The notes beneath the pieces were generated by a model. That model searched no databases. It saw nothing but the letters and a program-made list of their open reading frames with translations, and was not told the DNA's origin. A stretch of DNA of 47,960 nucleotides from Wenzhouxiangella sediminis (lineage in GTDB: Bacteria; Pseudomonadota; Gammaproteobacteria; Xanthomonadales; Wenzhouxiangellaceae): assembly GCF_003410055.1 (NCBI RefSeq), contig NZ_QUZK01000023.1, positions 1-47,960 on the forward strand. The letters are read 5' to 3'. Below are positions 11,802 through 13,658 of the stretch, one piece after another. Position 1 is the stretch's first letter. Each line of letters opens with the position of its first letter. A program made the position numbers and the translations under genes.

Positions 11802-12437
11802 TCAGGGCAGGCCGAGCAGCTTGTGCGTCTGTACGCTCAGGCGCCATTTCGGGTGCTGCATGCAGTACTCGATCGATCGCCGGGTGTTGCCTTCGAGTTC
11901 GGGGCCGTCCATGGGCTGGAGCAGGAAGTGACGGAAGTCGAGCCCTTCGAAGTCGGCCGGGTCGATACCCGCCTGCGGATAGACGAGCTTGAGTTCGTCG
12001 CCGTGCTCGACCACGAGCTCGGCGCCCGCCTTCGGGCTGACGCAGAGCCAGTCGATGCCGGAGGGAGCGGGGATGGTGCCGTTGGTTTCGACGGCGATCT
12101 CGAAGCCGCGTTCGTGCAAGGCATCGATCGCGGCTCGGTCGAGCTGCAGCAGGGGTTCGCCGCCGGTGCAGACCACCAGTTTCGGACCTTGCGCGTCGTG
12201 CGGCCAGCGCCGGCTGACGGCGGCCGCCAGCGACTCACCGTCCTCGAACTTGCCGCCGCCCGGACCGCCCGTACCGACGAACTGGGTGTCGCAGAACTTG
12301 CAGATCGCCAGATGCCGGTGCTGCTCCCGTCCGGACCAGAGGTTGCAGCCGGCAAAACGCAGGAAGACTGCCGGCCGGCCGGCGTTGAGCCCCTCGCCCT
12401 GCAGCGTGTGAAAGATCTCGCGGACGGTGTAGGTCAT
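11802..12437 (-). CDS. queE: 7-carboxy-7-deazaguanine synthase QueE
   Basis: A 211-residue radical SAM enzyme that ring-contracts 6-carboxytetrahydropterin to 7-carboxy-7-deazaguanine in queuosine/preQ0 biosynthesis. Cluster cysteines are C31, C46 and C49, the extended CX14CX2C form known from Burkholderia QueE. The N-terminal REIFHTLQGEG and CTGGEPLLQ are clear family motifs. The ATG at 12437 overlaps the stop of the upstream queD-like gene (ATGA), which decides the start over the longer open frame reaching 13262. QueC and QueF are not in the window. Confidence 0.96.
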   Translation of the reverse strand: MTYTVREIFHTLQGEGLNAGRPAVFLRFAGCNLWSGREQHRHLAICKFCDTQFVGTGGPGGGKFEDGESLAAAVSRRWPHDAQGPKLVVCTGGEPLLQLDRAAIDALHERGFEIAVETNGTIPAPSGIDWLCVSPKAGAELVVEHGDELKLVYPQAGIDPADFEGLDFRHFLLQPMDGPELEGNTRRSIEYCMQHPKWRLSVQTHKLLGLP

Positions 12438-13519
12438 GGCACGAGCAGGCCCCGGGTGCTTCCGCCGCGCAGTAGAAGGGCGCCGTGCCCGGGTTTTTCG
12501 AGCACATCGATACGGCTCAGCCCCGGGAGTTCGGCGGCCATCCGCGCCTCGATGTGGCGCGCGATGGCAGCCGGGTCGTTGTCCTCGAGCCCGGCCTTCT
12601 GGTGGAGCGGCTGATGGTCGAGTTCCCGGAACAGCGGATCGAAACGCTGTTTGACGTCGCCGTAGTCGTGGACCCAGCCCATCACCTCGTCGAGCCCGCC
12701 GGCCAGGTGCAGGCGCGTGGTGAACGTGTGCCCGTGGAGCAGCCTGCGGGGATCGCCCTGCGGCGCCCGCGCAAGCCGGACGGCGCTGTCGAAGGACATC
12801 GCTTTCCAGATTCGCCAGGTGCGGCCGTCGTAGTGGCAGCCGGCCGAAGCGGTTTCCAGCACCGAGATGCCGGTCAGGCCGGGCAGAACATCGGTAAGGT
12901 TCTGCCAGAGCCAGCGGGCCAGGACTTCGCTGGTGGGGTTGTCGAGGCCGGGCAGGTCGTTCAGGCAGGCGAAGTGGATCTGCTCGTGCACCGGCTGCCA
13001 GGCTTCGGCGATCCGATCCTGCGTGCGCCAGGCATCCTGCCCGGCATCGACGCGAGCATGGATGACCGCCTCGAAACCGTGACCGTGCATCCGGCCGCAC
13101 TTGTGCCCCCGAGGAACGCTGGGCAGCCGGTGCGCGGACTCGAAGCGGAAGCGGCGCCAGGCCAGCGGGTGTTTTCCCGGCTCCACGACCGCGCCACGAT
13201 CCGGCGCGCTCCTCAGGACGATGGCGTGCGGTTGGGCCGAAGCGGCGCGCTCCAGCAGCCATTCGGCGATGCGGGCGTCGTCCGGTGCGCCGATGAGCTC
13301 GTTGACGAGCGCGTAGTCGAGTGGCGCGACGGCCTCGTCCAGGATTGCTCCCAGCGCACGCGTTTCATCGCCGGGGAAGTCGCCGGGACAGGAGGCGGCG
13401 GCTGCGAAGATGCGGGCCTCGAAGCCGTGGCCGTGCAGGCGCTCGCCGTCGGCAACGGCCAGGCGCCGCGCCGCCTCGAAGGGCCGCAGCGCAGTCAGAA
13501 AAAGCGAGTGGGCGTTCAT
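12434..13519 (-). CDS. queD: three-domain 6-carboxytetrahydropterin synthase (QueD-like, triple T-fold)
   Basis: A 361-residue protein with three tandem PTPS/QueD-like domains, where QueD is normally ~120 residues. Domain 1 (~1-110) has HGH at 29-31 but lacks the first zinc His and catalytic Cys. Domain 2 (~118-238) has the full zinc set H130, H145, H147, the catalytic-type C141 and E222, but IHF at 181-183 replaces the usual LDH dyad. Domain 3 (~239-355) lacks the first His and the Cys but keeps HGH at 262-264, D301-H302 and E341. Its stop overlaps queE's start, supporting a QueD role before QueE. A complete active site may need residues from domains 2 and 3; that is inference. Confidence 0.85.
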   Translation of the reverse strand: MNAHSLFLTALRPFEAARRLAVADGERLHGHGFEARIFAAAASCPGDFPGDETRALGAILDEAVAPLDYALVNELIGAPDDARIAEWLLERAASAQPHAIVLRSAPDRGAVVEPGKHPLAWRRFRFESAHRLPSVPRGHKCGRMHGHGFEAVIHARVDAGQDAWRTQDRIAEAWQPVHEQIHFACLNDLPGLDNPTSEVLARWLWQNLTDVLPGLTGISVLETASAGCHYDGRTWRIWKAMSFDSAVRLARAPQGDPRRLLHGHTFTTRLHLAGGLDEVMGWVHDYGDVKQRFDPLFRELDHQPLHQKAGLEDNDPAAIARHIEARMAAELPGLSRIDVLEKPGHGALLLRGGSTRGLLVP

Positions 13520-13581: not shown

Positions 13582-13658
13582 TGGTGGCTACGGGTGGACT
13601 CGAACCACCGACCCCAGCATTATGAGTGCTGTGCTCTAACCGGCTGAGCTACGTAGCC
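13582..13658 (-). tRNA. tRNA-Met (CAT), elongator
   Basis: A complete cloverleaf on the minus strand, 77 nt including an encoded CCA. The acceptor stem GGCTACG pairs with CGTAGCC and is followed by discriminator A. The D-arm holds AGCTCAGCCGGTTAGAGC, and the T-loop reads GGTTCGAGTCC. The anticodon stem CAGCA/TGCTG encloses the loop CTCATAA with anticodon CAT. The first acceptor base is paired, and the overall sequence is close to elongator Met tRNA rather than the initiator. A CAT anticodon could also be a tRNA-Ile modified at C34, but the body resembles elongator Met. Confidence 0.95.

Follow-up and report, generated by a model that had tools for sequence, protein, structure and literature searches.

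The protein of 361 residues encoded in the window, by which is meant the whole stretch of 47,960 nucleotides from Wenzhouxiangella sediminis (NZ_QUZK01000023.1), is quite probably a single-chain QueD (6-carboxytetrahydropterin synthase) that builds one active site from the second and the third of its three modules. The pseudo-trimeric ring in which the modules would stand, the meeting of the two half-sites within one chain, and the catalytic activity are all predicted from sequence comparison. T-fold rings place the final strand of each subunit next to the opening strand of the following one, an arrangement that suits fusion. In ordinary PTPS/QueD enzymes, the zinc triad, the Cys, and the pterin-anchoring Glu come from one subunit and the Asp-His dyad from its neighbour. 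The three modules of the chain equal the number of subunits in one PTPS ring.

The gene is read on the minus strand, with its ATG at 13519 and its stop at 12434 (Table 1). The Pfam model PTPS matches the protein in three separate stretches, with a whole-protein E-value of 4.8e-42, which bears out an earlier note on this DNA that had described three QueD-like domains in one chain of 361 residues. The QueD equivalog of NCBIfam, TIGR03367, also falls in three stretches and gives 111.7 bits against a cut-off of 89.25, a score that is the sum over the modules; five scanned relatives are above this cut-off as well. The broader NCBIfam subfamily TIGR00039 gives 91.5 bits, under its cut-off of 125.5, and five scanned relatives are likewise under it.

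The CxxxHGH motif is present as C141-GRM-HGH, and the predicted zinc ligands, H130, H145, and H147, are all in module 2. Module 1 has R18 at the position of the first His, no Cys, H29-G-H31, and D68-Y69 at the dyad, and module 3 has V247 at the first-His position and no Cys near its HGH. A unimodular QueD holds all of its catalytic residues in one module; the window protein has three modules, with the residues split between them. The earlier note had placed H130, C141, H145, H147, H182-F183, and D301-H302 correctly, and it had read rightly that, in the window protein, the zinc triad and the Cys are in module 2 alone and an intact Asp-His is in module 3 alone.

Module 2 aligns over nearly the whole length with the single-module chains 4ntk, 4ntm, and 2oba, which are taken to be the QueD of E. 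coli and P. aeruginosa. No three-module protein was found among those of known structure, since all PDB sequence matches are to chains no longer than 200 residues. The residue numbers of E. coli QueD are counted along the solved chain, in which D70 and H71 are presumed to be the catalytic dyad and E110 the pterin-anchoring Glu, a role that would fall to E222 in the window protein.

Table 1. Features of the three-module queD and its surroundings in the window; E. coli QueD equivalents are in brackets, and rows are the 113 aligned proteins described in the text.
Feature	Coordinates	Strand	Remarks
queE, Cx14CxxC type, 211 aa	11802..12437	-	TIGR04508 343.8 bits against 240
three-module queD, 361 aa	12434..13519	-	Pfam PTPS in three stretches; TIGR03367 above cut-off
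module 1, about residues 4-106	13202..13510	-	HGH and D68-Y69; without first His, Cys, and dyad His
module 2, about residues 119-233	12821..13165	-	zinc triad, Cys, NPTSE, pterin-anchoring Glu
module 3, about residues 234-352	12464..12820	-	Asp-His dyad with nearby Trp, Asp, Lys, and Phe; without Cys and first His
H130, first zinc His (H16)	13130..13132	-	113/113 rows
C141, Cys of CxxxHGH (C27)	13097..13099	-	113/113 rows
H145-G-H147, zinc ligands (H31, H33)	13079..13087	-	113/113 rows
H182-F183, changed module-2 dyad (D70-H71)	12971..12976	-	Asp-His in 28/113 rows
E222, pterin-anchoring Glu (E110)	12854..12856	-	113/113 rows
D301-H302, module-3 Asp-His dyad	12614..12619	-	113/113 rows
tRNA-Met (cat)	13582..13658	-	62 nt upstream of queD, same strand

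The placing of these residues was followed through 113 rows, which consist of the window protein, 26 relatives from genome searches, 78 of 80 loci from a public-genome scan, and eight of nine phylum loci. Left out were L012 of G042, whose gene is split over two contig ends; L096, where the contig starts within module 2; L129, with its broken frame; L180, which the extraction pattern did not catch and which by eye has HH in module 2 but Asp-His in module 3; and G676 and G685, for which no locus was retrieved. L010, without the start of module 1, and L061, without the end of module 3, were kept though incomplete at a contig end. The His, Cys, His, and His of module 2, its Glu, and the Asp-His of module 3 are invariant in all 113 rows. 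The invariance of C141 and HGH is partly by construction in the first two sets of relatives, which were extracted with the pattern HxC...HGH; no complete row was seen to fail this pattern, and the eight phylum rows were extracted without it. Among 44 representatives below 70% identity, a set that removes redundancy such as that of two pairs of rows identical over the tree columns, the four module-2 residues and the module-3 Asp-His each occur in 44, and the module-2 Asp-His occurs in 14.

The dyad of module 2 is Asp-His in 28 of the 113 rows (28 of 105 and none of the eight added later, which have no Asp at 182), and the intact form is also found close by, in L009 of the window's own genus. 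Within the 105 rows, it takes 19 other forms, including HH, HL, DY, HY, HQ, HG, NY, AW, and EN. On a tree of these 105 rows, built without the dyad columns, the state of this dyad changes at least 11 times, with three changes forced by well-supported branches; this tree was built quickly and contains several long branches, and loss and gain look alike on it. The dyad of module 3 does not vary in the same rows. In module 1, the second dyad position is Tyr in 109/113 rows and His in one. The HGH is kept in module 1 in 112/113 rows and the two His of the module-3 HGH are kept in 109/113 and 112/113, with the first His absent from both modules and the Cys absent from both with few exceptions.

The three-module protein and its residue placing recur in relatives down to 36% identity and are thus not a chance reading. 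The earlier note had asked whether the residue split is conserved among homologues, and this stood for the zinc/Cys site of module 2 and the Asp-His of module 3; the 28 rows that keep Asp-His in module 2 mean, however, that the split is neither absolute nor obligatory across the family. The random loss of residues that the note had set against its own reading was not what the 113 rows gave, as the two halves are invariant and it is the module-2 dyad that drifts.

The modules of 105 three-module proteins were also compared with 22 single QueDs, namely, 21 from the window's family, extracted with the pattern HKC...HGH, and that of E. coli, at the positions that are at least 95% conserved in the single QueDs (given here in E. 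coli numbering). Module 2 retains H16, C27, H31, H33, N75, P83-T84-S85-E86, and E110 in 100% of the 105 proteins, and its losses are W51 (0%), K59 (0%), F62 (2%), D70 (42%), and H71 (48%). Module 3 retains W51, D54, F62, D70, and H71 in 100% and K59 in 99%; its losses are H16 (0%), C27 (0%), and T84 (1%), and the PTSE stretch is missing. Module 1 has no complete set, with H16 in 0%, C27 in 8%, W51 in 0%, H71 in 1%, and E110 in 0% of the proteins. The sharing is imperfect: D54 is kept in 76% and F55 in 63% of module 2; P83, T84, and E86 in 85-95%, D70 in 80%, and K59 in 14% of module 1; and E110 in 61% and HGH in 96-99% of module 3. The pattern of the catalytic residues fits what would be expected if module i gave the zinc/Cys site and module i+1 the Asp-His, with one site alive. 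The opposite direction is disfavoured because it would need a His at the module-1 dyad, where one row of the 113 has it.

The same comparison bears on whether module 2 is active by itself, or together with its own dyad in a module-2 oligomer, with the Asp-His of module 3 serving folding or packing. The zinc, Cys, and pterin-binding residues are all in module 2, which also keeps its dyad in 28 of 113 rows and D54 in 76%, and to this extent such an enzyme would be accommodated. It is nevertheless very improbable, since the module-2 dyad has taken 19 other forms in 105 rows, while the single QueDs have Asp-His in 22/22. In addition, W51, K59, and F62 are kept with the dyad in module 3, and modules 1 and 2 are without them in the majority or almost the whole of the rows, although the window protein still gives three PTPS stretches with Pfam.

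The preferred reading, in which modules 2 and 3 of one chain share the site, draws further on the junction between them. Six residues lie between the Gly of module 2 that corresponds to the C-terminal Gly of E. coli QueD and the module-3 position of the E. coli N-terminal Lys in 113/113 rows, and that position is itself Lys in 111/113. A junction fixed at six residues leaves no free linker between the two modules. A site formed between chains, with module 2 of one and module 3 of another in a larger ring or dimer, would leave the same conservation, a pattern that looks alike whether the neighbour belongs to the same chain or to a second one. The accessible part of one source gives PTPS as a dimer of trimers, that is, a hexamer of two trimeric rings, with each site between three adjacent monomers, so that a second chain may contribute (PMC7546909). 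An arrangement of this kind is still rather unlikely here, as the three modules make up one PTPS ring and the fixed junction keeps module 3 beside its own module 2.

The genomic surroundings place the single-chain protein in the queuosine pathway. The stop of queD and the start of queE share the tetranucleotide ATGA (queD TGA 12436-12434, queE ATG at 12437), an overlap that the earlier note had already pointed out. The window's queE is of the kind with wide radical-SAM cysteine spacing, Cx14CxxC (TIGR04508). By motif patterns, 64 of 78 loci have a queE-like ORF at most 200 nt downstream of the three-module queD, and 42 of 78 have a queC-like ORF adjoining it upstream. The genome of the window also encodes FolE2 (GCHY-1; contig 44:72336-73211), QueC, QueF, and Tgt. 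Classical FolE was not found in this genome, and with FolE2 present the step before QueD is therefore probably carried out by that other cyclohydrolase.

A search of the genome, which is 99.79% complete, turned up no second PTPS protein with the QueD motif, and the separate normal queD that would have told against the earlier note was thus not seen; if the pathway runs, the three-module protein must be its QueD. A PTPS-like protein of 132 residues on contig 33 (L001:1492-1890), between ORFs that read as dehydrogenase-like and glycosyltransferase-like, was considered as the real QueD and rejected, as it has no Cys and carries HGA instead of HGH. Six further genomes of the genus with the three-module protein also have this Cys-less kind. 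With the same Pfam model, a further PTPS protein was found in 8 of 27 other three-module genomes, namely, the six Cys-less ones of the window's genus, one in G625 that has Glu, not Cys, before HGH, and one in G618. The last (L139:1480-1974) is a single PTPS of 164 residues with CxxxHGH, present in addition to the three-module protein, and is possibly a second QueD or another kind of PTPS. In 26 of the 27 genomes, no other PTPS with the QueD motif was found, an absence that weighs less in G034, G040, and G638, which are 84-85% complete.

These surroundings also bear on the idea that the protein has ceased to be a QueD and either catalyses a different reaction as a PTPS relative or is an inactive relic. 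According to the accessible part of one source, it is common for PTPS paralogues to have other functions, and the motif is CxxxHGH in PTPS-I and CxxxxxHGH in PTPS-II (PMC5041015); two of the three modules here are without a complete zinc/Cys site. Yet the PTPS-I motif is present in 113/113 rows (partly by construction of the extraction), conservation of the residues is strict, the gene shares an overlap with queE and its relatives adjoin queC and queE, and without this protein the queuosine pathway of the genome has no QueD. A change or loss of function is accordingly held to be extremely unlikely.

The three-module form was found in several samples of genomes. In the family sample (43 genomes, the window's own included), there are nine three-module genes, one of which is split over two contig ends, 21 single-domain QueDs, and 13 genomes with no match; all 21 one-module matches are single-domain QueDs with HKC...HGH, and no genome of this sample has both forms. 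Matches were obtained in nine of 298 other genomes of the order sample at E <= 1e-40, of which eight belong to the window's genus; in 18 of 368 other genomes of the class sample at E <= 1e-36, in 15 families; and in 13 of 397 other genomes of the phylum sample at E <= 1e-36, two of which were already in the class sample.

A scan of public genomes with the junction of modules 2 and 3, which selected module-3 stretches by HGH and DYGDVK and not by Asp-His, gave at least 577 confirmed stretches. The three-module form was examined in the best 80 of these, with the other 497 outside that count: 78 carry the complete set of modules in a single frame, with one of these cut at its end by the contig, and the remaining two are cut inside module 2 and frame-broken, respectively. 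Many of the best 80 of at least 577 belong to Chromatiaceae, and others bear the labels Methylococcaceae, Thiothrix, Magnetococcales, or, in one MAG, Nitrospinaceae. Rows from the window's class include some that are identical to records labelled Gammaproteobacteria, from which that class is deduced for the window as well. The locus in the MAG labelled Nitrospinaceae (L105) is outside Pseudomonadota and reflects a transfer or a binning error. Thiorhodococcus minor has a second, frame-broken copy (L129:951-1850) alongside the intact copy L080, and one Ectothiorhodospiraceae MAG has two copies on different contigs (L061 and L071), one of which is cut by a contig end. One scan of viral contigs found no relative; 44 plasmid records and one phage record match, and among the matches listed (10 and one) none covers 80% of the query in one place.

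It is probable that gene triplication turned a homotrimer into one chain, a pseudo-trimer that has given up two of its sites and forms the remaining one in trans from two unequal modules, and that this form is widespread. The triplication would have occurred within one gene, after which one of three sites was kept. Module 2 would supply H130, H145, H147, C141, the NPTSE stretch, and E222, and module 3, joined directly to it, would supply D301-H302 together with W282, D285, K290, and F293, while module 1 would close the ring as a scaffold. It is proposed that, as module 1 is without a zinc/Cys site, the Asp-His of module 2 serves nothing and drifts, and that, as module 3 is likewise without such a site, the His of the module-1 dyad could become Tyr. 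The HGH kept in modules 1 and 3 and the Asp/Asn-Tyr of module 1 are beyond what the single-site explanation covers.

Several known systems resemble this protein in part. QueD/PTPS-I (TIGR03367) has in common with it CxxxHGH, the zinc triad, the Glu, the Asp-His, and the queC/queE neighbourhood, but consists of one module with all residues in each chain and a site between identical subunits, whereas here the residues are split between modules 2 and 3. The PTPS of the BH4 pathway also combines zinc with an intersubunit catalytic triad, but it is a single-module hexamer with the PTPS-II motif CxxxxxHGH, in contrast to the CxxxHGH and three modules found here. In its title, the 1995 paper of Burgisser et al., reportedly on the rat enzyme, ascribes 'an intersubunit catalytic triad motif' to PTPS. 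Urate oxidase likewise has tandem T-folds in one chain; unlike the three-module QueD, it has two modules, no zinc, and other chemistry.

The closest parallel in design comes from the same pathway, in the bimodular QueF of V. cholerae and E. coli, which also has tandem T-folds with active-site elements distributed over the modules. In the accessible part of its description, the QueF motif is in one of the tandem T-folds and the catalytic Cys and Glu are in the other, and they meet in one chain (PMC5372742). Bimodular QueF differs in belonging to another enzyme family and in having two modules and no central tunnel, against three modules here. The principle of a divided T-fold site is thus known, and the three-module QueD shows it in a new form. 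No description of a three-module QueD was found in the open-access literature that was searched.

As the sites of PTPS/QueD lie between identical subunits, no subunit can have its role altered on its own. A chain whose modules each bear one half of one site would make the intersubunit triad testable by single-residue changes, and it also raises the question of the purpose of module 1. Following bimodular QueF, the three-module QueD would be another T-fold oligomer of the queuosine pathway, the second so far, that was fused with its residues divided, and it offers a simple annotation rule for 'QueD' proteins of about 360 residues. If the reading is true, the family would hold a natural record of complementary degeneration, in which the spare dyad has been changed repeatedly and the needed dyad is fixed, and a trimodular T-fold form would occur in many families within the window's class and also outside it.
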